64,000 nt of DNA from Gloeobacter violaceus PCC 7421 (lineage in GTDB: Bacteria; Cyanobacteriota; Cyanobacteriia; Gloeobacterales; Gloeobacteraceae), in assembly GCF_000011385.1 (NCBI RefSeq), contig NC_005125.1:1302001-1366000 (forward strand), in the 5' to 3' direction. Positions 20,133 to 42,638 of this stretch are shown here, piece by piece. Positions within the stretch are counted from its first letter, which is position 1. Every line of letters starts with the position of its first letter. A program made the position numbers and the translations under genes. Under the pieces are notes generated by a model, which made no database searches, was not told the DNA's origin, and saw nothing but the letters and a program-made list of their open reading frames with translations.

Positions 20133-20497
20133 CGCACCGAGAGGCTCGGATCGGCTCGGGGCCAGGACCGTGCCGCCTTCGGTGCAACAAAACTTATCTT
20201 CAGGTGCTGTTGATCTCCACCGATCGATGTGGTTTCTTTGTAACCGAAGATGCCGAAGAGCGACACCGCGATTTACCTAACGCAATGTTTGTTAATATCG
20301 CTTGTCTAGGGGCTCTGGTTGGCTTGGCTGGGTGGGGGGTATGTTGAAAGGCCAGGGACGCTGCGGGGTAGGGTTGGGGTCAGTTGTTTTATACGATTGC
20401 GCTCTAGGGCTCCCGTGCGGTCGTGGCCGCATGTCTAATGACCCGACGACGGACAGTAGCCGGTCCGCTTTGGGTTGACTGTTACGGGAGTGTCTAC
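20133..20497. other. Leader region upstream of apcE
   Basis: The 365 bases contain no gene. A TATACGAT stretch near 20391 resembles a -10 box, but no good -35 is placed 17 bp before it. A long leader before the core operon would fit regulation by light or nutrients, but no specific motif could be assigned. Confidence 0.4.
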
Positions 20498-23400
20498 ATG
20501 AGTATTCGGGGAACCAGTGGCAGTACTGTGGCGCGTCCGCGCTTGTTTCGGACGGTGATGACCGAGACGATCAACGGCATCAACGCCGAAGATCGCTATC
20601 CCAACTCCGGCGAAGTGTCCCAGCTCGATCAGTTTTTTGGCGACGGCCAGCGCCGCATCGCCATCGTGGCAAAGCTGACCGAGAATGCCGAGATGATTGT
20701 CTCGCGCGCCGCCAACCGCATCTTCGTGGGCGGCAGTCCGATGGCCTACTCCGAGCGTCAGAAGGCCAAGGCCAAGAGCCCCTTGGCCAACGACGAATTC
20801 GGCAACGAGCCGATTGTCGAGGACCGGGGCGGGTTTTTGGAGTCGCTCAAGTCGATTTTTTCGACCCGCGGCGGCGGTGGCCGGGCGAGCGCCGATTTTG
20901 CGGTGCCCCCCGACTTTGAACCGATCAACATCGCCCGCTACGGTCCGGAGCGGATGCAAAAATCGATCCGTGACCTCGACTGGTTCTTGCGCTATACGAC
21001 CTACGCCATCCTGGCGGGGGATCCGAGCATTCTCGAAGCCAACTGCCTGGGTCTGCGCGAAATCCTCGAAAAGTCCTGCTCGATCAGCGCCACGATCGTC
21101 GCTCTGCTGGAGATGCGCAAGAACGCGGCGCGCCTATTTAAAGACGAAGCCGACAGCAAGCTGGTGTCTTCTTACATCAGTGTCGTCATCCGCGCCCTCG
21201 ACGCCGACCGCTCCGACGCGCCCGCCGATATCGTGCGTCCCAGTTCGGAGGACCGGCCCGGCCTGACGCTGCCCTACATCTACAAGCTCTCGGCCGATTC
21301 GCTGACGACGTTCAAGATGACGGCCATCTACGGCGCCGACGGTCGGCCCAAGGTCAACCTTTCCTCCGACGAAAAAGAGCGCGTCGTGCGCGCCGCCTAC
21401 CGCCAAGTCTTCGAGCGTGACCTCAAAGCTTACGGCCAGTCGGTCTCAGAAGCCGAATCGAAGGTCAAAAACGGTGAAATCTCGGTGCGCGAGTTTGTCC
21501 GCCGCCTGGGCAAATCCGAGTTGTACCGGCGGGAGTTCTACCAGCCGTTTATCAATTCGCGCGTGCTCGAGCTGGCCTTCAAGCACTTTTTGGGCCGCGC
21601 ACCCGAGTCGCGCGCCGAGGTGCAAAAGTACTTTTCGATTATTTCAAGCCCGATCGTGCGCGGCCAGTCGTCGATGCCGAGCGGCGGTCTCTACGCGCTC
21701 ATCGACGCGCTCATCGACTCCGAAGAGTACACCAGCATTTTCGGTGAAGACACGGTGCCCTACCTGCGGAATCTGGGGGTCGAAGCCCAGCCTTCCTGGA
21801 ACTGGGGCGCGGCCTACGACCTGTACAACTACGCCGCTCCCCGGCGCAAGGTGCCGCAGTTTATCACCTTGTTCGCCGACTACACCCAGCCGCTGCCGAA
21901 CCAACACCCCTACGGCGCCGGCAACGACCCGCTGGAGATCCAGTTCGGCGCCATCTTCAAAAATTCGACCATCAACCCCGCAGAGCGGGCTGCGCCCATC
22001 GGCAAGGACGTCAAGCGCATCTTGATTCGCAACGGCAGCCCGACTTCCAACGAGCGGGGCAATCCCACAGGCATGAGCGAAGGGGCGACGACGCTCGGAC
22101 CTAAGATCTTCAAGCTCACCCAGAACGTCGGCTTCCGCTCGAAGGGCATGGTGCAGAATGCCGGGGTGGTGACGGTTGAGGGCAGCGTCCAGGCGCTGAT
22201 CACCGCTGCCTACCAGCAGATCTTCGGCCGCCAGCTCTACCAGGGGCAGCGCTTGAAGGTGGCCGAGATCAAGCTCGAAAACGGTGAAACCACTGTTAAA
22301 GAGTTCGTGCGCGCCCTGGGCCGCTCGGAGATCTTCCGCAAGCTCTACTGGGAACCTTTTTACGTCTGCAAGGCGATCGAGTACATCCACCGGCGGCTTC
22401 TGGGCCGTCCGACCTACGACCGCGTCGAGAACAACCGCTACTTCGACATCGCCTCCAAAAAAGGCTTCTACGGTGTCGTCGATGCGATGCTCAACTCGAA
22501 CGAGTACCAGGAGGTCTTTGGTGAAGATGTGCTCCCCTACGAGCGCTACTTGACCCCCGCCGGTCTGAGCCTGCGCAAAGGCCGCTTCGGTTCTTCCGAT
22601 GTGCTCACCACCCCCGGTGGGATCACCCCCCGCGGCGACGCAGCGCGGATGATGGACAAGATCCAGGAACTGGGCACCCCCATCAACGAGCGCAGCATCC
22701 CTGAGATGTACGTCAACCAGGGGGTACCGGCCCTCAAGCGCCAGCGCAAGGTCTTCAAGCAGTCGCAGGCGACCGACCGCGAATCGTTCGACGCCCTGGT
22801 CACCGCCGCCTACGTGCAGGTCTTCGACAAGGACATCGCAAGTTATATCCGCAGCGAGTTCAGTGCCCTCGAAAGCCGCCTGCGCAACCGCGAGACCTCC
22901 GTCAAAGAGTTCGTGCGGCTATTGGGCTTCTCGGCTCTCTACCGCAAGCAATTCCACGACCGCTACCCCAACACCAAGGTGGTCGAGTTTGCCTTCAAGC
23001 ACTTCTTGGGCCGCGCCGTCAAAAACCAGGCGGAGCTTATCAAGTACCACGGCTTGCTTGGCCGCAAGGGCATCAAGGCGCTAATAGGCGCCCTGGTCGA
23101 CGGCGAGGAGTACGGCCGGCTCTACGGCGAGGACACGGTGCCCTCGTGGCAGTTTCCCACCCTGCCCGCCGCCAACTACCCCAACTCGGTGGAACTGTAC
23201 AACCGGTTTACCCGCCAGGACGACAGCCTGGTGGTGCCGAGCTTCAAGCCGATTCGCTCCAAGATGGACATCGCCTCGATGCCGCTGGTCCAGGCGGCCC
23301 TCAAGGAGCAGCAGGCCACCAAGACCGCCCTCGACATGAGCAGGCCGATGTTCCTCGAACTCGGCCGCTCCTTCAAGGGTGCCGACGGCCAGTCGGTGGA

Positions 23401-23965
23401 GGTGGGTGTGGGCACCCTGCGCCGCCAACTGGAGCACATCTACCGGATTGCCCCCGACGCGACCCGCAGCGAAAAGGACGTGGCCATCAACGCCATCTAT
23501 CGCCAGGTGCTCGATGTCTTCGCCGGTATCCCGCCCAGCTATTTGCGCCTGAGCGAAGCGGAGTCCAAGCTCAAGAACAACGAAATTTCGGTGCGCGAAT
23601 TCGTCCGCCGATTGGGTCGTTCGGAGAACTATCGCAAACGGTTCTTCGAGCCCTATTCGAGCCCCAAAGTCGTCGAACTGCTCACCAAACACTTCCTGGG
23701 CCGTGCCCCAATCTCCCAGCAAGAAATCAGCACCTACGTGCAGATTCTCGGCACCAAGGGATTGGCAGCGGCGGTGGATGCCATCGTCGAGTCGCCCGAG
23801 TATCTGACGATCTTCAACGAAGATATCGTCCCCTACCGGCGCTACCCGACGCTGCCCGCGGGCAATTACCGTGCCAGCGTGCGCGTCAACGACGAGGAGT
23901 TGATCAGCCAGTCCTGGTCGAGCCTATCGCCGACCTACACGGGCTACCAGTACGTGACCCGATGA
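20498..23965 (+). CDS. apcE: Phycobilisome core-membrane linker ApcE with four linker repeats
   Basis: ApcE organises the allophycocyanin core, anchors it to the membrane and acts as terminal energy emitter. The 1155-residue protein starts at ATG 20498 (MSIRGTSGSTVARPRLFRTV), matching the family N-terminus. Residues about 20-240 form the phycobiliprotein domain (SRAANRIFVGGSPMAY), interrupted by the loop-like GGFLESLKSIFSTRGGGG. The bilin-binding Cys is about C194 (EKSCSISATIVAL). Four linker repeats follow from about residues 288, 560, 761 and 992, each with a REFVRRLGxSE or KEFVRxLGxS core and a KHFLGRA-type helix (RRLLGRP in repeat 2). The number of repeats determines how many core cylinders can be joined; four would suit a large core. 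It heads the core operon. Confidence 0.96.
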   Translation: MSIRGTSGSTVARPRLFRTVMTETINGINAEDRYPNSGEVSQLDQFFGDGQRRIAIVAKLTENAEMIVSRAANRIFVGGSPMAYSERQKAKAKSPLANDEFGNEPIVEDRGGFLESLKSIFSTRGGGGRASADFAVPPDFEPINIARYGPERMQKSIRDLDWFLRYTTYAILAGDPSILEANCLGLREILEKSCSISATIVALLEMRKNAARLFKDEADSKLVSSYISVVIRALDADRSDAPADIVRPSSEDRPGLTLPYIYKLSADSLTTFKMTAIYGADGRPKVNLSSDEKERVVRAAYRQVFERDLKAYGQSVSEAESKVKNGEISVREFVRRLGKSELYRREFYQPFINSRVLELAFKHFLGRAPESRAEVQKYFSIISSPIVRGQSSMPSGGLYALIDALIDSEEYTSIFGEDTVPYLRNLGVEAQPSWNWGAAYDLYNYAAPRRKVPQFITLFADYTQPLPNQHPYGAGNDPLEIQFGAIFKNSTINPAERAAPIGKDVKRILIRNGSPTSNERGNPTGMSEGATTLGPKIFKLTQNVGFRSKGMVQNAGVVTVEGSVQALITAAYQQIFGRQLYQGQRLKVAEIKLENGETTVKEFVRALGRSEIFRKLYWEPFYVCKAIEYIHRRLLGRPTYDRVENNRYFDIASKKGFYGVVDAMLNSNEYQEVFGEDVLPYERYLTPAGLSLRKGRFGSSDVLTTPGGITPRGDAARMMDKIQELGTPINERSIPEMYVNQGVPALKRQRKVFKQSQATDRESFDALVTAAYVQVFDKDIASYIRSEFSALESRLRNRETSVKEFVRLLGFSALYRKQFHDRYPNTKVVEFAFKHFLGRAVKNQAELIKYHGLLGRKGIKALIGALVDGEEYGRLYGEDTVPSWQFPTLPAANYPNSVELYNRFTRQDDSLVVPSFKPIRSKMDIASMPLVQAALKEQQATKTALDMSRPMFLELGRSFKGADGQSVEVGVGTLRRQLEHIYRIAPDATRSEKDVAINAIYRQVLDVFAGIPPSYLRLSEAESKLKNNEISVREFVRRLGRSENYRKRFFEPYSSPKVVELLTKHFLGRAPISQQEISTYVQILGTKGLAAAVDAIVESPEYLTIFNEDIVPYRRYPTLPAGNYRASVRVNDEELISQSWSSLSPTYTGYQYVTR

Positions 23966-30258: not shown

Positions 30259-31131
30259 TCAAGCCATCGCCCGCTTTTGTAGCTGTGCAAGCGCCATGGC
30301 CACCACCCGCTGCAATTCGCCCGACTCGCGGGCCAGTTGGGCTTCAAGCGGCCCAAGGGAGGTCGGATCGCCAATCTTGGCCAGCGCCAGGGCAGCGGTT
30401 TTGCGCACCTCGGGGCTCGGGTCGGTCAGCTGTTCGATCAGCAACGGCACGGCCGGTTGGTGGGCCAGGGTGCCCAAGGCCGCCGCCGCCTCGGCCCGCA
30501 CCCCAGGGGCGCTGTCCGTGAGCGCCGATTCGAGCAAGGCGACGGCGCGATCGTCGGTCGTCTCCTGGGTGAGGTTGGCGACGGCGGCAACGACGGCGGT
30601 GCGTACGGCAGCGGCCGGGTGGGTGTAGGCGGTGTACAGGTGTTCGGCCACCTCGGTCCCCATAAAGGCGAGCGCCCAGGCAGCGTGGCCTTTGGCGGTC
30701 TCGGAGTGCTCGGAGGTGAGCAGGGCAATCAACTGCGGCACCGCCGCTTCGCCCATCTTGGCCAGGGCACCGGCGGCGGAACTGCGTACGACCGTGTCCT
30801 CGTCGTGCAGCAAAGCTTCGATCAACACGGGCACCGCCCGCGGGTCGCTGGTCTTGGCGAGCGCCTTGCCGCAGGAGCGGCGTACCACCGGGTTGGAGTG
30901 GCGGGATAAGCCCTCCAGCAGCATCGGCACCGCCGGCAGGCCAATCTTGCCGAACGCTTCCACCAGACCCAGACGCACCATGCCGCGGCTATCGGCCAGC
31001 GATGCGACCATCTGCCCCAAAAGGGCGGTGTCAGAAGTGTCGAAGGTGCCGATGGCCAGTAGGGCATTCACCCCATCGAGCAGTCGGTCGGTCGCCTCGG
31101 CGGTGGGCACCAACGGTTGCGGGTCGACCAT
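30259..31131 (-). CDS. HEAT-repeat protein of the CpcE/NblB lyase-like class
   Basis: The 290-residue protein is built of about eight HEAT/PBS-lyase repeats (for example NPVVRRSCGKALAKTSDPRA, EDTVVRSSAAGALAKMGEAA, SPEVRKTAALALAKIGDP). Members of this class attach bilins (CpcE/F, CpeY/Z), remove them, or steer phycobilisome breakdown (NblB). The gene sits two bases after a small conserved gene and 22 bp before the divergent phycobiliprotein, so the three are one operon. A chaperone or lyase for that phycobiliprotein is a natural inference. It lacks the paired partner typical of CpcE/F. Confidence 0.85.
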   Translation of the reverse strand: MVDPQPLVPTAEATDRLLDGVNALLAIGTFDTSDTALLGQMVASLADSRGMVRLGLVEAFGKIGLPAVPMLLEGLSRHSNPVVRRSCGKALAKTSDPRAVPVLIEALLHDEDTVVRSSAAGALAKMGEAAVPQLIALLTSEHSETAKGHAAWALAFMGTEVAEHLYTAYTHPAAAVRTAVVAAVANLTQETTDDRAVALLESALTDSAPGVRAEAAAALGTLAHQPAVPLLIEQLTDPSPEVRKTAALALAKIGDPTSLGPLEAQLARESGELQRVVAMALAQLQKRAMA

Positions 31132-31133
31132 GG

Positions 31134-31376
31134 CTACTCCGCCGTGGAGGCGGGCAGCGCGAACGGTTCGCCGGCACGCAGCGCTGTGAGCATCGCATCG
31201 ATGCGGTGAATCTCGGGATGCTTCTCCAGATGGCCCATCGTCACCTGTTTTGGCACCTTGGCCAGCTTGGCGATGTGCAGCGCGTCGTCGATGATCCGCC
31301 GGCGATACTGTTCCAGTTCGGCGATCACCGCTTCAATCTCTTGCTCGGAGGCGGGGGCGGCCGGTGGGTCAGACAT
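31134..31376 (-). CDS. Small conserved protein of the phycobiliprotein/HEAT operon
   Basis: The 80-residue product (SEQEIEAVIAELEQYRRRII, then DDALHIAKLAKVPKQVTMGH, EKHPEIHRID) is mainly helical, with a possible coiled coil at residues about 12-35, and no membrane segment. Start ATG 31376 (MSDPPAAP) is preferred to an upstream ATG at 31418. The stop lies two bases before the HEAT-repeat gene start, so translation is coupled. It looks like a conserved cyanobacterial protein of unknown function. Confidence 0.7.
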   Translation of the reverse strand: MSDPPAAPASEQEIEAVIAELEQYRRRIIDDALHIAKLAKVPKQVTMGHLEKHPEIHRIDAMLTALRAGEPFALPASTAE

Positions 31377-31479
31377 GCTTGCTCCTTGCGTCGTCACCAG
31401 CCATAGTAGCGCCCGCACCTATCTGTACCGGGAAGCAAATCATTGTTAAAAATGGTAAAAACTGCTACCGGATATACCC

Positions 31480-32133
31480 ATGGACATCGACGCGGTCCGC
31501 GAAGCTCTTGCAAGCGACAACCCGCAGGACCGCCTGCGGGGATTGACCCAGTTGCGCAACAGCGACCCCGAGACGGCGGTGCCGCTGTTGCTCGCCAAGC
31601 GGCGCGACCCCGAATTTATGGTGCGCTCGTTTGTGGCGATGGGACTCGGGCGGCACCGCACCGAGGAGTCCTTTGCAGCGCTGCTGGAATTGCTCAAAGG
31701 CGACGGGGACTATAACGTGCGCGCCGAGGCGGCCAATTCGCTGTCGATGTACGGCGAGAGCGCCCTGCTCCATCTGCTGGAAGCGTTTCGCTTCGACGAT
31801 CAATGGCTGGTGCGCCGCAGCATCCTGGCGGCGCTGATTGAATCGCCCCACACCGAAGCGCTTTACCAAATCTGCGTCCTCGCCCTCGAAGACGCCGACC
31901 TGACTGTGGTTGAAGCGGGAATCGACGGATTGGGGGCGCTCGGGCGTACCGAAAAGCGCGCCGAGGCGCTGGCGCTGCTGCTACCCAAGGTGGGAGACCA
32001 GGAGTGGCGCACGCGCTACCGTGTCGCCCGCGCCCTGCAACCCCACGCGGACGACCCGAGGGCGAAGGCGGCACTTGCCTACTTGGCGCGCGACGAGGAC
32101 CGGCGCGTTGCCACAGCGGCGGGTTCGCAGTAG
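31480..32133 (+). CDS. HEAT-repeat protein, NblB-like
   Basis: The 217-residue protein has about six HEAT repeats (LRGLTQLRNSDPETAVPLLL, PEFMVRSFVAMGLGRHRTEE, DYNVRAEAANSLSMYGESAL, DQWLVRRSILAALIESP). The pattern and length are close to NblB-class proteins, which help dismantle phycobilisomes or act on free phycobiliprotein. It is divergent from the three-gene operon to its left (103 bp apart) and convergent with the pentapeptide-repeat gene (four bases between stops). A lyase function is possible, but the shortness and the absence of a partner favour a binding role. Confidence 0.78.
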   Translation: MDIDAVREALASDNPQDRLRGLTQLRNSDPETAVPLLLAKRRDPEFMVRSFVAMGLGRHRTEESFAALLELLKGDGDYNVRAEAANSLSMYGESALLHLLEAFRFDDQWLVRRSILAALIESPHTEALYQICVLALEDADLTVVEAGIDGLGALGRTEKRAEALALLLPKVGDQEWRTRYRVARALQPHADDPRAKAALAYLARDEDRRVATAAGSQ

Positions 32134-32137
32134 AGGC

Positions 32138-32992
32138 TCAGCTTTCGAGGCTGGCGCGCGTCGTGGTGCGCGTAAACGGGTTCCAGGTGTCCAGTTCGCG
32201 GGCCGGGCGGGAAGTGAGGCGGGCTTTGGCCGCGTCGCTCAGACCGATGGAGCGACTGAAATCCGCCCCGGCAATGCTCGGGATGTCGTTGAGTTCGGTA
32301 CCGCGCAGATCGGCGGCACGCAAGTCCGCCATCTGCAATTCGGCGCCGTTGAGGCGCGCCTCGCGCAGATCCGCGCCGGTCAAAAAGGCTTTTTGCAGAT
32401 TCGAACCGCTGAGGATGGCGCCTTGCAACCTGGCGCCGCTCAGATCCGCGCCGCTGAGGTACGCGCCGCGCAGATTCGCGCCTTCGAGATCCGCCCCGCG
32501 CAAGTTGGCGGTGTTGAGATACGCTCCGCTCAGGTTGGCGCGCGGCCCGACCGCCCCCGAGGTGCGGTAGACAAACTCCTCCGGCCAGCGCGTGGCACCG
32601 TCGTACCAGGCGGCCTGCAACTGGGCGCCCTCCAGGCGGGCACCGACCAGGTCCGCTGCGCGCAAATCCGCCCGGTTGAGGCAACTGCGCTCCAGAGTGG
32701 TCCCCGACAGATCGGCGTGGGAGAGGTCCGCTCCGCGCAGGTCGGCACCCGCAAGCCGGGCGCCCTGCATCTGGGCGCCGCTCAAATCGGCACCGATGAG
32801 CACAGCACCGTCCAGGTTGGCTCCGCGCAGATCCGCCCCGGCAAAGTCCACCCGCTGGCCGTCCAGCCCGCTCAAATCCAGATTTTGCAGATCGGCCCCG
32901 CGCAGAGCGCCACCCGCGGCAATCCGGGCTTGGACAGCCTCACGGTCCGGCAATGCCGGTTGAGCAGGGGGAAGCGAGGAGGATTCGGCCAT
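32138..32992 (-). CDS. Pentapeptide-repeat protein
   Basis: Most of the 284 residues consist of A(D/N)LxG-type pentapeptides (GADLRGANLDGAVLIGADLS and similar), which fold into a right-handed beta helix. A break of about 30 residues (SWYDGATRWPEEFVYRTSGA-like) interrupts the helix in the middle. The C-terminus (SIGLSDAAKARLTSRPAREL) is different and the N-terminus is short. Such proteins are abundant in cyanobacteria; most have unknown function. Nothing here indicates a DNA-gyrase-protecting Qnr. Confidence 0.9.
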   Translation of the reverse strand: MAESSSLPPAQPALPDREAVQARIAAGGALRGADLQNLDLSGLDGQRVDFAGADLRGANLDGAVLIGADLSGAQMQGARLAGADLRGADLSHADLSGTTLERSCLNRADLRAADLVGARLEGAQLQAAWYDGATRWPEEFVYRTSGAVGPRANLSGAYLNTANLRGADLEGANLRGAYLSGADLSGARLQGAILSGSNLQKAFLTGADLREARLNGAELQMADLRAADLRGTELNDIPSIAGADFSRSIGLSDAAKARLTSRPARELDTWNPFTRTTTRASLES

Positions 32993-33138: not shown

Positions 33139-33714
33139 ATGACGATGATGGATTTCTTTCGCAAAAGCGAAGGAACCTGGTTTACGCAGCGGACCGTGCA
33201 CCACTTCGACGCCGTCGCCGACGAATCGGGCGAGTCGAATTTGATCGTGCGGGTGCTCGAAGCGGACAACCCGCTCGTTCTGCAGGTGTGCGAAGCCCAG
33301 CGCATCGACCCGGCCCGGGCGCTTGGCGGGGCGGCCTTCACCTGGCAGGACAACCTGGAGACCGACGATCCCGGCCCGAACCGCGCCGCCGTCCTGGTGG
33401 ATTTACCCACCGACGCAAGCCGCCGCAGCGGTCGATTGCTGCGCAACCAGGGCTATGTCGAAAACATTCCGGTCGCGAGCCGCTACGCCTTTGCGCCCGA
33501 CGGTGTGCTCACCATCGACACCGAGTACGTCAACAACCAGGGCCAGGAGCGCTGCTGGTTCATCAGCGATCACTTTCGGATCCGGGTGAGCACCGTGCGC
33601 CTGATGGGCGGTGTCAACCTGATGACCTATTGTTCCGAACGCCGCTGCGTCCTGCCGGACAGCCTCGAAGCGCTGCGCAGCCGCCACGCTGCCGGGGTGG
33701 CCGCCCCCAGATAG
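33139..33714 (+). CDS. cpcS: Phycobiliprotein lyase of the CpcS/CpeS family
   Basis: The 191-residue protein is a CpcS-type bilin lyase: MMDFFRKSEGTWFTQRTVHH at the N-terminus, then GRLLRNQGYVENIPVASRYA and ERCWFISDHFRIRVSTVRLM, all typical of the lipocalin-like barrel that carries a bilin to Cys of phycobiliproteins. The start is ambiguous among ATG 33139, 33145 and 33148; a longer frame runs from 32953, but homologues start near MMDFF. CpcS and CpeS subtypes cannot be told apart here. It lies upstream of pebA, in the same direction. Confidence 0.9.
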   Translation: MTMMDFFRKSEGTWFTQRTVHHFDAVADESGESNLIVRVLEADNPLVLQVCEAQRIDPARALGGAAFTWQDNLETDDPGPNRAAVLVDLPTDASRRSGRLLRNQGYVENIPVASRYAFAPDGVLTIDTEYVNNQGQERCWFISDHFRIRVSTVRLMGGVNLMTYCSERRCVLPDSLEALRSRHAAGVAAPR

Positions 33715-33906
33715 ATTAGTATCGATTTATTTTGCATTGAGCGGGTGCTGAGCCCGGCAAATCTGCCCGATTGTATGGGCTAAGCCACCTCCGGCGCTCC
33801 TCCGGTAGCGTATTACGTATTGTTGCTTTCTTTCGCAATGGGCTGCCGCGCCCGGGGGCGCATTTTATGCTCTGGTAGAGAAAGCTTGGGGCGCAGTTGG
33901 CAAAAT

Positions 33907-34641
33907 ATGTATAGGCCGTTTCTTGAGCATTTGCAACAGAAATTGCAGTCGAGTTTCGATTTGCAATCCCTGACGATTCCGGCGGGACTAGACTATCGAA
34001 TCAGCGAGCGCGGCCGCGAGTCGACGACGATCCGCAGCTGGTGCTACACCTGCTCCGAGCTGCGCAAGATTCGCTACACCTACATCGACGGGGGCGAGCA
34101 CGCCCAGGTATTTAACAGCGTTATCTACCCAGCCCACCGCTACGACCTGCCCCTTCTGGGCATCGATTTGCTCGCGTTCGGCAAGAAGAAAAATCTGATC
34201 GTGCTCGACTTTCAGCCGCTGTTTCGCGACAAGGCGTACCTGGCGCGCTATATCGAGCCGATGCGGATCCTGCGGGAGCGCTACGGCGATGTGGCCCAGG
34301 ATGTCGAGATGAAGTTCTACGACGCCAATCAGTACTTCTCTAAGTACCTGCTCTTCGCGCGCACCGACGCTGAAACGGTGGCGGGCCGCGTGTTTACCGC
34401 CTACTGCGACTACTTGGATCTTTATTGGCAACTATTGGCTTCGGCGGCACCTTTGGGCGATGCGCAGGATATCCGGCGGATCGTCAAGGCCCAAAAAGAC
34501 TACGACCAGTACAGCGCCGATCGCGACCCCGCCTCGGGACTGTTCAGCAGCTATTTTGGCCACGAGTGGGCCGAGCGGTTCTTGTACGAATTTTTGTTCG
34601 AAGATGCGGTGCCGCTGGCGGTGGGCCAGCCCGGGCGATGA
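33907..34641 (+). CDS. pebA: 15,16-dihydrobiliverdin:ferredoxin oxidoreductase PebA
   Basis: The 244-residue ferredoxin-dependent bilin reductase makes 15,16-dihydrobiliverdin from biliverdin. It begins [14 protein letters not shown] and has the family segments [40 protein letters not shown] and [16 protein letters not shown] near the C-terminus. Its stop overlaps the pebB start as ATGA, so the two enzymes are made together; they pass the intermediate directly. Their presence shows that the organism makes phycoerythrobilin and so phycoerythrin. Confidence 0.95.
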
Positions 34642-35375
34642 CCCTGTACGAACCGTTTCTTGAGCGCGCCCAGCAAGTGCTCACCCGGCGGCTGGAACTG
34701 GCGCCCTATCCGATTCCGGTGGGTTTCGAGCGCAAGGAGGCGCTCGTGCGCGGCGAGGCGGTCGTGACCACGAGCACCGCCTGGCAATCGCCCAAGCTCC
34801 GGCAGATTCGCGCCGCCCACGTCCAGGGCGGTGGTGCGCTGCAGGTGCTCAACTTTGTCATCTCCCCCCGGCTGGAGTATGATTTGCCCTTCTTTGGGGC
34901 GGATCTGGTGACCCTGCCGGGAGGGCATCTGATTGCCCTCGACATGCAACCCTTGTTTCGCGACGACCCGGCCTACCAGGCAAAGTACACCGAGCCGATT
35001 GTGCCCCTGTTCGAAGCGCACCGCGCCCACCTCGAGTGGGGCGGTGACTTTCCGGAGGAGGCGCGGCCGTTTTTCTCGCCCGCCTTTTTGTGGACGCGCC
35101 CAAAGGAGACCGGCACCGTCGAGACGCGCGTGTTCGCGGCCTTCGTCGATTATCTGAACGCTTATCTGGACTTTGTCGAGCGCGCCGAACCTGTGACGCA
35201 CCCCGAGGGGCTCGCGGCCGTCGAGCGGGCCCAGCTACGCTATTTGCACTACCGGGCCGAAAAAGATCCGGCGCGGGGGATGTTTCGGCGCTTTTACGGA
35301 CCGGAGTGGACCGAGGAATATATCCACGGTTTTTTGTTCGATCTCGAACGCCGCCGGGAGGCTGTCCACCGTTAG
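34638..35375 (+). CDS. pebB: Phycoerythrobilin:ferredoxin oxidoreductase PebB
   Basis: The 245-residue bilin reductase completes the path from dihydrobiliverdin to phycoerythrobilin. It shows [40 protein letters not shown] and [15 protein letters not shown], and ends [20 protein letters not shown]. The ATG lies within the last codons of pebA. The longer open frame upstream of it overlaps pebA completely and is not coding. Confidence 0.95.
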
Positions 35376-35475: not shown

Positions 35476-37950
35476 ATGTCAACTGTCCTTGATGACCAAT
35501 CCAAGGCCTACGCCCCCGGTTCCGCGAACGGACCGACCGCCGGGCTGGAACCCTTCGTGCGCATGTCGCGGATGATCCGCTCCGGGGTGCCGGAGGATCG
35601 CGAGGAGCCCGACGAACTGTGGCTTTCGATGGTGCGCGATATCTTCGGCCGCGGTTACATGGACCGGCTGAGCCAGACGCGCGCTATCGACTACAGTGCG
35701 TTTGTGCGCCCCGCCGATCAGGCGACCGCCGACGGGGCCGCCCAGACCAAATTGGGGATCACCGCGATTGCCCCGGATCAAGGCGTCGAGTTGCGCCCGA
35801 ATTTTACCGAAGCCGATGTGATAACGGTAATCCGCGCCGCCTACAAACAGCTTTTCGGCAATACCTACATTCTCGAGTCCGAGCGGGTCATCCAGGCAGA
35901 GTCGCTGTTGCGCAACGGCTCGATTAGCGTTCGCGAATTTATCCGGATCCTGGCCAAGTCGGATCTGTACAAGGAGCGCTTCTTCCGCTGCACGTCAAAC
36001 AACCGCTTCATCGAGCTGAACCTCAAGCATCTGTTGGGCCGCGCTCCCTACAACCAGGGCGAAATCGCCGAGCACCTCGATCGCTACTGCCAGTCGGGCT
36101 ATGACGCAGAAATCGATTCTTACATCGACTCCGACGAGTACCGGCGGGTGTTTGGCGAAAATACCGTGCCTTACTTCCGCGGCTTCAAGTACCAGGTCGG
36201 TCAGTCCGCCGCCGCCTTCGAGCGCATGCGCGCCCTCTACAGCGGCGATGCCGGCAGCGACACCGACCGCAACCAGAACGGCCAGCGCACCGAACTGACC
36301 TCCGGGCTCGCCGATCCGGCTCAGCCCGTGCGCGCGCGCACGGACTACGCCCTCACCCGCGTCGATATTCCGGGGGGTAACGGTGCGGCCGGTAGGCTCG
36401 CTGCTCTCGACGAGAGCCTGGGCAGTTGGCTCGATGCCGCCCGCGACCTGATTTCCCAGAACGACTACAGCCAGAAGGCGATCGAAGTCGAGCCGAAGCG
36501 GGTGGCACCCTACGCGCAGTATCTGACCCCCGCCGTCGAAGCCACCCCTGACGCCGCCGCCCAGACGAAGCTCGGCATTACCGCCGTCGCTCCCGACCAG
36601 GCGGTCGAGTTGCGCCCCAACTTCGGCGAAGCCGAGGTGCAGGCAGTGATCCGCGCCGCCTACAAGCAGATCTTCGGCAACACCTATATCCTCGAAGCGG
36701 ACCGGGTGGTGATTGCAGAATCGCTGTTGCGCAACGGTTCGATTAGTGTCCGTGAGTTCGTGCGATTGCTGGCCAAGTCGGATCTGTACAGGGACCGTTT
36801 CTTCCGCACCGCCTCCAACAACCGCTTCATCGAACTGAACTTCAAACATTTCCTGGGCCGCGCTCCCTACAGCCAGGCGGAAATCGGCGAACACTTCAAC
36901 CGCTATCACAAGTCGGGTTACGACGCGGAGATCGATTCTTACATCGACTCCGACGAGTACCGGCGGGTGTTTGGCGAAAATACCGTGCCTTACTTCCGCG
37001 GCTTCAAGTACCAGGTCGGCCAAGCCGCCCGGGGCTTCGACCAGATGCAGCAGCTGTTTGCCGGGGATGCCGGCAGCGACACCGACCGGGGTATCGGCGC
37101 CCAACCTGCCGCCAAGCTCACGTTTCCCCTCTCGCGGCCGCTCGGGGTGACCTCGGCCTACTTCCCGTCCTCCCAGGGCGGGGCTGCCACCAGCGACGGA
37201 TTGGAGATGTTCACCCGCATGGCCCGGGAGTTGACCGTCACCCCCGTCTCTGCCCGCAGGACGACGTCCCCCACCGCCCCCACCGCCCCGGCGATGCCGC
37301 TGGCGGGCTACTACAGCCGTCCCGCCCCCCGGGCGACCGCCGACGGGGACGCCCAGACGAAGCTCGGCATCACGGCGGTGGCCCCCGCCCAGGCGGTGGA
37401 GTTGCGCCCCAATTTCGGCGAGACCGAGTTGCAGGCAGTGATCCGCGCCACCTACAAGCAACTGTTCGGCAACACCTACATCCTCGAAGCCGATCGGGTG
37501 GTGCAGGCAGAATCGCTCTTGCGCAACGGTTCGATCAACGTGCGCGAATTTGTGCGGTTACTGGCCAAGTCCGAACTGTACAAGGAGCGCTTCTTCCACT
37601 GCACCTCCAACAACCGCTTCATCGAACTCACCTTCAAGCACCTGTTGGGCCGCGCCCCCTACAACCAGTCGGAGTTTGTCGAGCACCTCGACCGCTACCA
37701 GAAATCCGGCTACGACGCGGAGATCGATTCTTACATCGACAGTGATGAGTACCGGCGGGTGTTTGGCGAAAATACCGTGCCCTACTTCCGCGGCTTCAAG
37801 TACCAGACCGGTCAGGCCGCCGGGGTCTTCGAGCGCACCCTCAAGCTCTACGGCGGCGATGCCGACAGCGATACCAATCGCAATCGGCAGGGCCAGCTGC
37901 GCCAGGTAGACCCCCAGGAACTGCTGCGCTCAGGTCGCGGTATCGTATAG
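35476..37950 (+). CDS. Giant phycobilisome rod linker with three linker domains
   Basis: The 824-residue protein holds three PBS-linker domains (about residues 110-280, 356-540, 619-802), each starting AQTKLGITA...VELRPNF and containing the core SLLRNGSISVREF, FIELNLKHLLGRAPYNQ (and variants) and DEYRRVFGENTVPYFRGFKY. An unusual N-terminal region (about 1-85) and Pro/Ala-rich connectors separate them. There is no CpcD domain. Gloeobacter phycobilisomes are known to contain such large multi-domain linkers instead of CpcG. Three domains on one chain could hold three rod discs in line or attach several rods to the core. It heads the linker operon and has AGGGAG before the ATG. Confidence 0.93.
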   Translation: MSTVLDDQSKAYAPGSANGPTAGLEPFVRMSRMIRSGVPEDREEPDELWLSMVRDIFGRGYMDRLSQTRAIDYSAFVRPADQATADGAAQTKLGITAIAPDQGVELRPNFTEADVITVIRAAYKQLFGNTYILESERVIQAESLLRNGSISVREFIRILAKSDLYKERFFRCTSNNRFIELNLKHLLGRAPYNQGEIAEHLDRYCQSGYDAEIDSYIDSDEYRRVFGENTVPYFRGFKYQVGQSAAAFERMRALYSGDAGSDTDRNQNGQRTELTSGLADPAQPVRARTDYALTRVDIPGGNGAAGRLAALDESLGSWLDAARDLISQNDYSQKAIEVEPKRVAPYAQYLTPAVEATPDAAAQTKLGITAVAPDQAVELRPNFGEAEVQAVIRAAYKQIFGNTYILEADRVVIAESLLRNGSISVREFVRLLAKSDLYRDRFFRTASNNRFIELNFKHFLGRAPYSQAEIGEHFNRYHKSGYDAEIDSYIDSDEYRRVFGENTVPYFRGFKYQVGQAARGFDQMQQLFAGDAGSDTDRGIGAQPAAKLTFPLSRPLGVTSAYFPSSQGGAATSDGLEMFTRMARELTVTPVSARRTTSPTAPTAPAMPLAGYYSRPAPRATADGDAQTKLGITAVAPAQAVELRPNFGETELQAVIRATYKQLFGNTYILEADRVVQAESLLRNGSINVREFVRLLAKSELYKERFFHCTSNNRFIELTFKHLLGRAPYNQSEFVEHLDRYQKSGYDAEIDSYIDSDEYRRVFGENTVPYFRGFKYQTGQAAGVFERTLKLYGGDADSDTNRNRQGQLRQVDPQELLRSGRGIV

Positions 37951-37967
37951 TCAATTCCTCATTCTCT

Positions 37968-38016
37968 AGCGCTTGCTGCGCATCGCTCATCGGTGCGCAG
38001 CAAGCGCTGGGAATTT
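37968..38016 (+). terminator. Stem-loop/terminator after the triple-linker gene
   Basis: AGCGCTTGCTGCGCA and TGCGCAGCAAGCGCT form a perfect 15-bp stem around an 11-base loop, followed by GGGAATTTTT. It probably stops or thins transcription before the next linker gene, which has its own ribosome binding site. Confidence 0.75.
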
Positions 38017-38132: not shown

Positions 38133-38990
38133 ATGGCCATCGGTCCGGCATCAGAGCTCGGTATCAGCCTGTTTGAAGACACAGATCCAGTTGAGTTGAA
38201 ACCTGGGCGCTCCGTTGAAGAAGTGGAAACGGTGATTCGGGCGGTTTATCGACAGGTTTTGGGCAACGCGTATGTGATGGAGAGTGAGCGGCTGGTCGTT
38301 CCCGAGTCGCAGCTGAAGCTCGGGGAGATTAGCGTGCGCGAATTTGTACGCGAAGTCGCCAAGTCCGAATTTTACCGCAAGCGTTTCTTCGACGCTGTTC
38401 CTCGCTACCGCGCCATCGAGCTGAACTTCAAGCACCTGTTGGGCCGCGCTCCCAACAGTTATGCCGAGATGGCCGAGCACAGCAAGATCCTCGATGCCGG
38501 TGGCCACGACGCCGAGATCGATTCGTATCTTGATTGCGACGAATACCAGGACGCCTACGGCGAATTGACGGTGCCTTTTTATCGGGGCTACCGCAGCCAG
38601 CCGGGCCAGACGATGGTCGAATTCACCCACATGTTCAAGTTGCTGCGCGGCGCTGCCACCAGCGATAAAGCGAGCCTGCCGGATCTGGCCACTCCGCGGC
38701 TCAATCGCCTGATCATCCAGGGAACGGCGGTGCCGGTGCTCACCATCAACACGCTGCCCACCTCCGAGAAGACCCAGTACAACGTGCTGACCGGCAACTC
38801 GGAGTGGGCGAGCAAGGTCCTGCGCATCACGGTGGGCCAGGCCCCCGTCCCCACCGACGGCCTCGACACCTACGATCCGAGCGACAGCAGCTACTCGGTC
38901 GTCGTACCGCTCAACCGCATGCTCACCGAGATGCAGAACATCAAGCGCAAGGGCGGGCGCATTTTGAATATCACCTCCATCGTCGCCTAA
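38133..38990 (+). CDS. Phycobilisome rod linker with CpcD-like C-terminus (type A)
   Basis: The 285-residue protein has one PBS-linker domain (residues about 20-190; core KLGEISVREFVREVAKSEFY and FKHLLGRAPNSYAEM) and a C-terminal CpcD-like domain (SKVLRITVGQAPVPTDGLDT, VPLNRMLTEMQNIKRKGGRI). Rod linkers of this form (CpcC/CpeC type) join rod hexamers. Its C-terminal domain closely resembles the small linker at 41088-41300 rather than the other rod cap. The GAGGAGG ribosome binding site is strong. Confidence 0.92.
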   Translation: MAIGPASELGISLFEDTDPVELKPGRSVEEVETVIRAVYRQVLGNAYVMESERLVVPESQLKLGEISVREFVREVAKSEFYRKRFFDAVPRYRAIELNFKHLLGRAPNSYAEMAEHSKILDAGGHDAEIDSYLDCDEYQDAYGELTVPFYRGYRSQPGQTMVEFTHMFKLLRGAATSDKASLPDLATPRLNRLIIQGTAVPVLTINTLPTSEKTQYNVLTGNSEWASKVLRITVGQAPVPTDGLDTYDPSDSSYSVVVPLNRMLTEMQNIKRKGGRILNITSIVA

Positions 38991-39016
38991 GGGCCGATAG
39001 CAGGAGAGCGCACTGC

Positions 39017-39059
39017 GACGGCTGTGATTTACCGACCGGAGTCCAACAGCGCAGCCGTC
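39017..39059 (+). terminator. Stem-loop between linker genes
   Basis: GACGGCTG pairs with CAGCCGTC across a 27-base loop. No T-tract follows, so it is more likely a transcript-stabilising or processing hairpin than a full terminator. Confidence 0.45.
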
Positions 39060-39093
39060 CTGTCCGTCGAGCGTCCCAAAAGGAGAACCGACC

Positions 39094-39861
39094 ATGAGTA
39101 CAGTGATGACCGGGGCAGTGGGTGCGGGCGATCTGGGCCTGTACCTTTCTTCGAACAGCGCCCCCGACGAAGTGGAGATCGTCATCCGGGCAGTTTACAA
39201 GCAGGTGCTCGGCAACCCGCACCTGATGGAGAGCGAACGGCTGGTACGCGACGAATCGAAGCTCAAAAACAGCGAAATCTCGGTGCGCGAATTCGTGCGC
39301 ACGGTGGCCAAATCCGAGCTGTACCGCTCACGCTTCTTTGAGACCTGCGGCCCCTACCGATTTATCGAACTGAACTTCAAACACCTGTTGGGCCGCGCCC
39401 CGCTCGATCAAACCGAGATCTCGGTGCACGTGCGCCTGTGCGTCGAGCAGGGCTACGACGCGGAAATTGATTCGTACCTCGATTCTGACGAGTACCAGGA
39501 CGCTTTTGGCGAGGATACCGTGCCGTTCCCGCGCGGATCGCTCAGCCAGGTAGGCCAGAAGCAAGTGGGCTTCAACCGCATGTCCTTCCTGCTGCGCGGC
39601 CCGGCCGAAGCCGACAAGGGCGTCAAAGAGGCGCAATTGCTCTACTCGGTCGCCACCAACAGCTCGACCCGCGTGCAGCCGCCTTTGCGCCCCGGCAACA
39701 CAGCCAAATCGTTCCGCATCGTCGTCTCGGGCGCCAAATACACCGGTCGCCTGCGCAGAAGCACCGTCGAATATCTGGTCCCCGCCAACCACATGACAGC
39801 CCAGATCCAGCGGATCAACCGGACGAGCGGCACCATCGTCAGCATCACCGAAGTTGTCTAG
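39094..39861 (+). CDS. Phycobilisome rod linker with CpcD domain (type B)
   Basis: The 255-residue protein has a PBS-linker domain (core SKLKNSEISVREFVRTVAKS, FKHLLGRAPLDQTEI, SYLDSDEYQDAFGEDTVPFP) and a CpcD domain (KSFRIVVSGAKYTGRLRRST, INRTSGTIVSITEV). The RRST motif is typical of the CpcD type found in CpcC and CpeC/D linkers. It could be phycoerythrin- or phycocyanin-associated; sequence alone does not tell. AAAGGAGAA precedes the ATG. Confidence 0.92.
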   Translation: MSTVMTGAVGAGDLGLYLSSNSAPDEVEIVIRAVYKQVLGNPHLMESERLVRDESKLKNSEISVREFVRTVAKSELYRSRFFETCGPYRFIELNFKHLLGRAPLDQTEISVHVRLCVEQGYDAEIDSYLDSDEYQDAFGEDTVPFPRGSLSQVGQKQVGFNRMSFLLRGPAEADKGVKEAQLLYSVATNSSTRVQPPLRPGNTAKSFRIVVSGAKYTGRLRRSTVEYLVPANHMTAQIQRINRTSGTIVSITEVV

Positions 39862-39899
39862 CATCTAATACCTGTCTCGCTTTTGGGTGCGATTGCGGC

Positions 39900-39924
39900 G
39901 GGCGCGTCTTTCGCGCCCCCTTTT
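39900..39924 (+). terminator. Attenuator-like hairpin between linker genes
   Basis: GGGCGCG-TCTTT-CGCGCCC forms a 7-bp G+C stem with a 5-base loop, followed by CCTTTT. It is a weak intrinsic terminator, and the next ribosome binding site lies about 20 bp after it. Confidence 0.7.
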
Positions 39925-39957
39925 GAAGACGTCAACTTTGGATATAGGAGAACCGCC

Positions 39958-40722
39958 ATGTCCCTTTGGGCCACCGAACAAGCCACCATCGAACTACTGC
40001 CGAACGCCACCGAAGACGACCTGCAGACCGTCGTGCGTGCGGTTTACAAACAAGTGCTGGGCAACGAACACCTGATGGAAAGCGAGCGGCTCACCACGGC
40101 CGAATCGCTGCTGCGCAACGGCGACATCACGGTGCGCCAGTTTGTGAGCCTGGTCGCCAAATCCGACCTCTACCAATCGCTGTTTTTTGAAACCACTTCC
40201 CAGTACCGCTTTATCGAACTGAACTTCAAACACCTCCTGGGCCGCGCCCCGGTCGATCAAACCGAGATTTCCGCCCATGTGCAAATTTACAACCAGGACG
40301 GCTACGAAGCGGAGATCGACAGCTACATCGACAGCGACGAATACATCGAAAATTTTGGCGACAGCGTCGTGCCCTATCCGCGGGCGGTGCGTACCCAGGT
40401 GGGTCTCAAGAACGTCGGCTTCAACCGCATGTTCGCCCTGATGCGCGGTGCCGCGAGCAGCGACGGCGACAACCGCGCACGGCTGATTACTTCGCTTGCG
40501 GCCAACATGTCCCCGCCCATCAAAGCGCCCGCCCGCAGTGGGGCCGGTTCCTACAGCAACACCGCCAAGCGCTTCCGCATCACCGTGGCCAAGTCGAACG
40601 TCGGCCCGCGCGTGCGCTACAGCAACATCGAGTACGTGGTCAGCTACGACAAGATGACCCAGCAGGTGCAGAATATTCACAAGGCCGGCGGCCGGATCGT
40701 CGCCATCAGCGAAGTTGCCTGA
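39958..40722 (+). CDS. Phycobilisome rod linker with CpcD domain (type B)
   Basis: The 254-residue protein has a PBS-linker domain (SLLRNGDITVRQFVSLVAKS, FKHLLGRAPVDQTEISAH, SYIDSDEYIENFGDSVVPYP) and a CpcD domain (KRFRITVAKSNVGPRVRYSN, VQNIHKAGGRIVAISEV). It is the closest relative of the preceding linker, so the two arose by duplication. Start ATG 39958 follows ATAGGAGAACCGCC; the frame extends upstream to 39883, but that part covers the attenuator hairpin. Confidence 0.92.
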   Translation: MSLWATEQATIELLPNATEDDLQTVVRAVYKQVLGNEHLMESERLTTAESLLRNGDITVRQFVSLVAKSDLYQSLFFETTSQYRFIELNFKHLLGRAPVDQTEISAHVQIYNQDGYEAEIDSYIDSDEYIENFGDSVVPYPRAVRTQVGLKNVGFNRMFALMRGAASSDGDNRARLITSLAANMSPPIKAPARSGAGSYSNTAKRFRITVAKSNVGPRVRYSNIEYVVSYDKMTQQVQNIHKAGGRIVAISEVA

Positions 40723-41306: not shown

Positions 41307-42050
41307 ATGACCCTCATCACACCGGACACCAGTCTGACGGTCGAGGAGGCCGTCGAGCAGTTGCGTGGAGAGGATCTCAGCCAGCGCTACTACGCGGCCT
41401 GGTACCTGGGCTATCTCGAGGACCCGCGCGCGGTGGAGGCGCTCGTCGCCGCCCTCGCCGACGAATCGGACCGCACAGAAATGGGCGGCTATCCGCTTAG
41501 ACGCAAGGCGGCAGAATCGCTGGGCCGCATCGGCGAGGCGCGGGCGGTGCCAAGCCTGGTCGAGATACTTGGGTGCGAGGATTACTACGTGCGCGAAGCC
41601 GCCGCCTGGTCTCTGGCGCGCATCGGGGACGCGCTGGCGGTGGAGCCGCTGGTGGCGTTGCTCGGCCAGGGGGGTTCTCAGCCCTACGAAGCGATCATCG
41701 AAGCGCTCGGGGATCTGCGCGTCCACCGGGCGGTGCCGCTCATCCAGCCTTTTTTGCAGGAGCGCTCCGAGCGCATACGCTACGCCGCCGCCCGTTCGTT
41801 GTTTCAACTGACCGGGGAAGTGGCGCTGATTGACATTCTGCTCGGGGGACTGGCAAGCGCCGATTCGCACATCCGCCGGGCAGCCCTGTTTGATCTGGCC
41901 GACACCGGTTATCTGCCCGCCGCCGTCAAGATTGTGCACGCCGATGTGACGGCGACGTTGAAGCTGCTCGCCCTCAAGCAACTGGCGGACGTGCAGACCA
42001 CCGACGCAGCGGCTGCTGACGTCCTGCCCTTTATCGATTCGATTCTGTAA
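41307..42050 (+). CDS. cpcE: Phycocyanobilin lyase alpha subunit CpcE-type
   Basis: The 247-residue HEAT-repeat protein contains SQRYYAAWYLGYLEDPRAVE, GYPLRRKAAESLGRIGEARA and DYYVREAAAWSLARIGD, the CpcE pattern. CpcE with CpcF attaches phycocyanobilin to Cys84 of phycocyanin alpha. It follows the small linker by six bases and the cpcF gene starts seven bases after its stop. Its substrate subunit is not encoded in the window. CpeY-type lyases for phycoerythrin are related, so the target is uncertain. Confidence 0.9.
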   Translation: MTLITPDTSLTVEEAVEQLRGEDLSQRYYAAWYLGYLEDPRAVEALVAALADESDRTEMGGYPLRRKAAESLGRIGEARAVPSLVEILGCEDYYVREAAAWSLARIGDALAVEPLVALLGQGGSQPYEAIIEALGDLRVHRAVPLIQPFLQERSERIRYAAARSLFQLTGEVALIDILLGGLASADSHIRRAALFDLADTGYLPAAVKIVHADVTATLKLLALKQLADVQTTDAAAADVLPFIDSIL

Positions 42051-42056
42051 TCTGCG

Positions 42057-42638
42057 ATGAGCACCACCGAGGACACGGCCGTCGAACGCGCCCTTGTCGA
42101 ATTTGCCCGCGCGGGCGCCCCGGCCGAATTGCTCGCCATCGTGCGCACGATCGCCGCCGCGGGCGATCCGCGCGGCACCGAGCCCCTGATCCGGGCGTTG
42201 ACGTTCAACGACGCTGCCTTCCACGACCTCGCCATCGACGGGCTGACGGCCATCGGCGAACCGGCTGTGGAGCCGCTGCTGGCCAGCCTGGACGGCATGG
42301 ATTACGGGGCGCGCTACCGGGCATTGCGCGCCCTGGTGGCAATTGGCGATCCGCGCGCCCGGCCGGCTTATGAGTACTGGCTGGGGGCCGACATCATCCC
42401 CGGCGTGCGCTGCATCTGCGTGAAGGGTCTTGCCCGTTTCCCCGACACCGAGCCGCTGCTCCTGAAAGCCCTCGAAGACAAAGTCTGGGTAGTGCGCTAC
42501 TACGCCATCCAGATGCTCTTCGAGCGGGGGCTCACCCCGTTCACCCATGCCGCCCTGGAAGCACTGGCAACCGACCCGGAGCGGGTGGTGCGTTTGAAGC
42601 TCGCCCAGATCTTCGCCCAGGTGAGTGCCGGAAGCTGA
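42057..42638 (+). CDS. cpcF: Phycocyanobilin lyase beta subunit CpcF-type
   Basis: The 193-residue HEAT-repeat protein (DPRGTEPLIRALTFNDAAFH, AIDGLTAIGEPAVEPLLASL, GMDYGARYRALRALVAIGDP, VWVVRYYAIQMLFERGLTP) is CpcF, the partner of the CpcE gene directly before it. It is the last gene of the linker operon, and the heterodimer would act on the rods that the upstream linkers hold. Confidence 0.9.
   Translation: MSTTEDTAVERALVEFARAGAPAELLAIVRTIAAAGDPRGTEPLIRALTFNDAAFHDLAIDGLTAIGEPAVEPLLASLDGMDYGARYRALRALVAIGDPRARPAYEYWLGADIIPGVRCICVKGLARFPDTEPLLLKALEDKVWVVRYYAIQMLFERGLTPFTHAALEALATDPERVVRLKLAQIFAQVSAGS

Follow-up and report, generated by a model that had tools for sequence, protein, structure and literature searches.

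A three-REP rod-core linker of Gloeobacter violaceus and a recurring predicted helix motif in the arms around its linker domains

The glr1262 locus and its surroundings

Gloeobacter violaceus is a cyanobacterium without thylakoids. We analysed 64,000 nucleotides of strain PCC 7421 (the window, positions 1302001-1366000; all feature positions below are counted within it) together with the whole genome, a single contig of 4,659,019 bases. The window carries an open reading frame from an ATG start to a TAG stop (Table 1) whose product aligns over 824/824 residues with zero differences to PDB chain 9k9w_a9, annotated as "Glr1262 protein". This product is Glr1262 of G. violaceus PCC 7421, and the 824-residue frame lies exactly where a sequence-only reading of the same DNA had located a three-domain linker. 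Glr1262, named CpcGm in PMC10696076, is present in the cryo-EM entries 9k9w, 9v7h, 9v7i, 9v7k and 9v7l (Sci Adv 2025; available text of PMC12525769), and the protein, including its structure, is thus an ordinary find as a discovery, having already been published in 2025.

Pfam finds three stretches of the REP linker domain PF00427 in Glr1262 (E = 3.8e-152; 499.2 bits against a curated cut-off of 28.7), the window coordinates of which were converted from genome positions. The modules are pairwise 79-80% identical over 180-184 aa, a similarity far beyond chance because the module-versus-module alignments score 741-770 and shuffled sequences reach at most 63. The sequence-only reading had recognised three linker domains on one chain as well as the repeats AQTKLGITA and VELRPNF, and we find all of this confirmed with both repeats in 3/3 modules, while the third repeat that it listed, SLLRNGSISVREF, stands unchanged in the first two modules and differs by one letter in module 3 (SLLRNGSINVREF). 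Its description of the connectors as low-complexity is borne out for one P/T/A-rich stretch (around residues 586-630, entropy 3.3-3.4 bits) but misses a conserved helix-like motif in both inter-domain connectors. Weak Pfam matches to VipB, EF-hand, DUF4214 and a glycoside hydrolase-like family inside the REPs were set aside as noise. The CpcD domain (PF01383) was not found in Glr1262 by Pfam and is present in all three of its downstream neighbours, a trio of rod linkers that adjoins glr1262 and keeps its order in other Gloeobacter genomes.

Table 1. Features of glr1262 and its downstream neighbours (window coordinates)
Feature	Position	Strand	Evidence
glr1262, three-REP rod-core linker, 824 aa	35476..37950	+	100% identity over 1-824 to PDB 9k9w_a9
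N-terminal arm, residues 1-85	35476..35730	+	PDB: self only; Gloeobacter orthologues; weak profile match to CpcN/CpcJ arms
Arm motif copy 1, EPFVRMSRMIRS, residues 25-36	35548..35583	+	PSSM 11.0; PFVRMSRM invariant in four genomes
Arm motif copy 2, ELWLSMVRDIFG, residues 47-58	35614..35649	+	PSSM 14.4, arm p = 0.003; aligns to CpcJ LFLNMAKDL
REP1 (PF00427)	35809..36180	+	173.3 bits
REP1-REP2 arm	36181..36627	+	motif GSWLDAARDLIS, residues 316-327 (36421-36456), PSSM 9.4
REP2 (PF00427)	36628..36999	+	175.6 bits
REP2-REP3 arm with P/T/A-rich stretch	37000..37419	+	motif EMFTRMARELTV, residues 577-588 (37204-37239), PSSM 17.1, p = 0.001
REP3 (PF00427)	37420..37791	+	174.1 bits
C-terminal tail; its last residues, LLRSGRGIV, also end the Gloeobacter CpcC rod linker	37792..37947	+	sequence comparison
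Three single-REP rod linkers with C-terminal CpcD domain	38133..40722	+	PF00427 and PF01383 in each

Just 3' of the glr1262 stop codon lies a very stable hairpin of 20 pairs (37966-38010; -43.5 kcal/mol for the surrounding 76 nt, z -8.4) that is conserved with matched changes in two relatives and gives way to another hairpin-like sequence in genome G003. It is followed by a T-rich run, which points to a terminator or an mRNA processing site ahead of the next linker genes. Directly upstream of glr1262 are genes for a CpeS-like protein and two ferredoxin-dependent bilin reductases (33160-35375), and the linker genes are flanked by four PBS-lyase-type HEAT-repeat proteins and one pentapeptide-repeat protein (30259-32992 and 41307-42638).

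Rod attachment by Glr1262 in place of CpcG

According to the available text of PMC12525769, cryo-EM places each Glr1262 REP in the base phycocyanin (PC) hexamer of one of three rods, with the REPs at the vertices of a triangle, and two copies per phycobilisome give two three-rod bundles with six rods in total. By the same account, the C/C' core cylinder carries the REP1-REP2 arm (residues 280-350) and cylinder B the REP2-REP3 arm, and Glr1262 is described there as a rod-core linker that contacts PC hexamers and the APC core and takes the role of CpcG. Density along the chain is incomplete, and three REPs on one continuous chain are given there as the most reasonable option. The proposal of three hexamers per chain made by the sequence-only reading agrees with this structure, the hexamers standing side by side at the rod bases and not stacked. 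Its suggestion that CpcG-type attachment has been replaced fits both the structure and the genome: all 15 REP matches are assigned to ApcE (4), Glr1262 (3), Glr2806 (3) or one of five single-REP genes (open frames of 277-326 residues), leaving no CpcG-type locus in this inventory, and a CpcG query found no match of CpcG strength in Gloeobacter (best E ~1e-28, where most other genomes reach 1e-30 to 1e-106).

Since each rod takes up one REP in its base hexamer, the number of REPs in Glr1262 sets the number of rods per bundle and not the length of a rod, which is set by other linkers. One could instead imagine that the three REPs stack hexamers along a single rod and that the domain number measures rod length, given that one REP fills one hexamer and that rods with three PC hexamers exist. 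We give this reading practically no credence, as it is contradicted by the triangular arrangement at the bases of three rods, as stacking is the job of CpcC1 and CpcC2 with a REP and a CpcD domain each, and as every rod holds 3 PC plus 2-3 phycoerythrin (PE) hexamers (available text of PMC12525769). This composition also means that rod length is unrelated to domain number, an outcome that had been named beforehand as a refuting one; it does hold and brings down the rod-length model, while three hexamers per chain stands. That the chain is cut post-translationally into single-domain linkers appears equally far-fetched, as nothing was found in its favour and the accessible part of PMC12525769 has Glr1262 modelled as one multidomain linker, which gel and mass spectrometry are reported to have shown in isolated phycobilisomes. 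The paper also cites a mutant study by Wang et al. (2023, Photosynth Res).

Relatives of the linker and of its REP domains

Glr1262 lacks the PF01383 domain that stands beside the REP in rod linkers of the CpcC/Cpe type and, with three REPs and arms before and between them, departs from the CpcG layout, in which one REP at the N-terminus precedes a core-binding extension at the C-terminus. Crown CpcG likewise ties core-proximal PC hexamers to the core and has an FLxMAR motif in its tail, but it has one REP, which the core-binding part follows in the chain. CpcN and CpcJ of Anthocerotibacter panamensis share with Glr1262 the possession of several REPs, the lack of a CpcD domain and the same motif in tandem in their arms, yet they have five and two REPs, respectively, with an identity of only 52-61% to the Glr1262 REPs of G. 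violaceus, and CpcN, a chain-core linker, builds hexamer chains rather than bundles (PMC10696076). The REP-domain tree separates both of them from all Gloeobacter REPs at 100/100. Glr2806 (CpcJ) of Gloeobacter itself also has three REPs with arms (REP identity 70-74%) and attaches PC hexamers to the core; unlike Glr1262, it attaches the lateral Rx hexamers and has an N-terminal arm with a single motif copy and a clear relationship to CpcG tails.

The Gloeobacter Glr1262 REPs share 68-77% identity with the REPs of the rod linkers CpcC1 and CpcC2, and the C-terminal LLRSGRGIV is common to Glr1262 and CpcC. In the tree, the Glr1262 REPs of G003 cluster together (80/82) instead of pairing by position with their G. 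violaceus counterparts, a pattern that hints at either separate duplication or repeated homogenisation. At two Glr2806 loci (L046 and L047), the three REPs are 95-98% identical within a genome and two inter-domain arms of L046 are identical to each other, pointing to recent homogenisation. The Glr2806 homologue of G003 (L045) has two REPs instead of three, matching a remark on G. kilaueensis in the available text of PMC12525769. Multi-REP linkers of another kind are encoded at L040 in genome G002, in which RPFSIRQR precedes each REP and a conserved element KMHEG...GFDRVGITDxGLLTALDLIGNPTTSSYVQ follows it, and are not described in the accessible portions of the linker literature cited here.

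A recurring arm motif and its proposed docking to the core

Comparing by eye the arms found in every multi-REP linker of the order, we noticed a short motif of the approximate form F/W-L-x-M-A-R-x-L, predicted to be helical, that occurs twice in the N-terminal arm of Glr1262 and once in each inter-REP arm. A position-specific scoring matrix (PSSM) trained on CpcN, CpcJ and one relative, all from other genera or families and with zero Glr1262 sequences, gave shuffle p values of 0.003 for the N-terminal arm, 0.013 for the REP1-REP2 arm (where another stretch slightly outscores the motif at residues 316-327) and 0.001 for the REP2-REP3 arm. The matrix also matches the N-terminal arm of Glr2806, finds no motif in the rod-only linkers CpcC and Cpe, and has a background of one match scoring at least 9 in 14,612 residues of non-linker proteins in the window. 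In Glr2806 the motif reads NFLDMARGI, and CpcN and CpcJ have copies of the form FLDMAREL. Crown CpcG tails contain GDxxNFLxMARxL, and the motif was not found in the tails of membrane-anchored CpcL-like proteins.

The N-terminal ~85 residues had been thought to lack known homology, which is true only for a plain PDB search, where the arm finds itself alone (entries of RecA and RepX were chance matches). It occupies the same position in the other genomes of Gloeobacter; PFVRMSRM and LWLSM-RD do not vary across four genomes, and a fragment at a contig end of a sister genus (G007) keeps a version of it at 48% identity. Profiles of trimmed arms match it to the inter-domain arm of CpcJ (E 3.4e-4) and the N-terminal arm of CpcN (E 1.9e-4), and the spacing of the two tandem motif copies is common to all three proteins. 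Far lower values (E down to 3e-14) obtained with untrimmed arms were rejected because they were driven by a conserved element preceding the REP, AQxKLGI, and the comparison was rerun with trimmed arms. An AlphaFold2 model built with four close orthologues draws helices at the motifs, which we count as weak support because the model is poor (mean pLDDT only 39.7).

The C-terminal extension of CpcG is its known core-binding part (PMC8448738), and the inter-domain linker of CpcJ is reported to hold its hexamers on the core (PMC10696076). The clearest link to CpcG is provided by Glr2806, whose N-terminal arm matches CpcG tails in hhalign with E 4e-9 (crown only) or 3.7e-11 at prob 97 (all) and is, judging from these profiles, homologous to the core-binding tail at the opposite end of the CpcG chain. 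The core-binding segment thus follows the REP in CpcG and precedes the REPs in Glr2806, and in both proteins it is reported to lie near the A/A' and C/C' cylinders (available text of PMC12525769; PMC8448738). For Glr1262 the evidence of such kinship is weaker: the REP2-REP3 arm matches CpcG tails (E = 1.6e-4), the N-terminal arm has an FLxMAR-type motif but gives no significant direct match (E 0.03), and a crown CpcG-trained model misses the motif of the REP1-REP2 arm (p = 0.18). A relationship of the N-terminal arm to CpcG tails would thus run via the REP2-REP3 arm, CpcJ and CpcN. The same crown CpcG model picks out MFLELGRSFKG in ApcE (20408-23962), around residue 980 of the frame in the arm before the fourth REP (p = 0.001), which may be a further motif copy or chance.

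We suggest that the four copies of this short helix motif in the arms of Glr1262 would serve in core docking as the same kind of helix as in the CpcG tail, so that CpcG-like docking may be reused several times per chain. The N-terminal arm matches the inter-domain arm with which CpcJ docks on the core, and on this ground it is proposed to make an extra, double contact there; we infer from these profile comparisons that it probably docks on the core. Convergence is conceivable because the motif is short, and the copies might be chance or convergent amphipathic helices, with a role for the N-terminal arm elsewhere, for example at a neighbouring rod or another phycobilisome. Apart from the brevity of the motif, such an explanation would fit the lack of a significant direct match between this arm and CpcG tails and the fact that the available text of PMC12525769 describes no contact for it. 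We nevertheless consider it rather unlikely, though to be taken seriously, as the motif recurs in four Gloeobacter genomes with an invariant PFVRMSRM, as its tandem spacing is shared by Glr1262, CpcJ and CpcN, and as it is confined to core-attached linkers. With good confidence, we see Glr1262 as a three-rod linker that replaces CpcG and docks on the core via a repeated arm motif, with an extra contact by its N-terminal arm.

On balance, we also lean slightly toward the broader idea of one portable core-docking helix common to gloeobacterial multi-REP linkers and crown CpcG, placed C-terminally in CpcG and N-terminally in Glr2806 and multiplied in the arms of Glr1262, CpcJ and CpcN, with its copy number and place, together with the number of REPs, encoding antenna architecture. 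Glr1262 itself is settled knowledge and accounts for how a bundle-shaped phycobilisome can be assembled with no CpcG. A docking motif shared among the arms would allow core-binding linkers, and the place where they bind, to be told from sequence by a simple rule; it would also connect the bundle and paddle architectures of Gloeobacteria with the hemidiscoidal antenna of other cyanobacteria.
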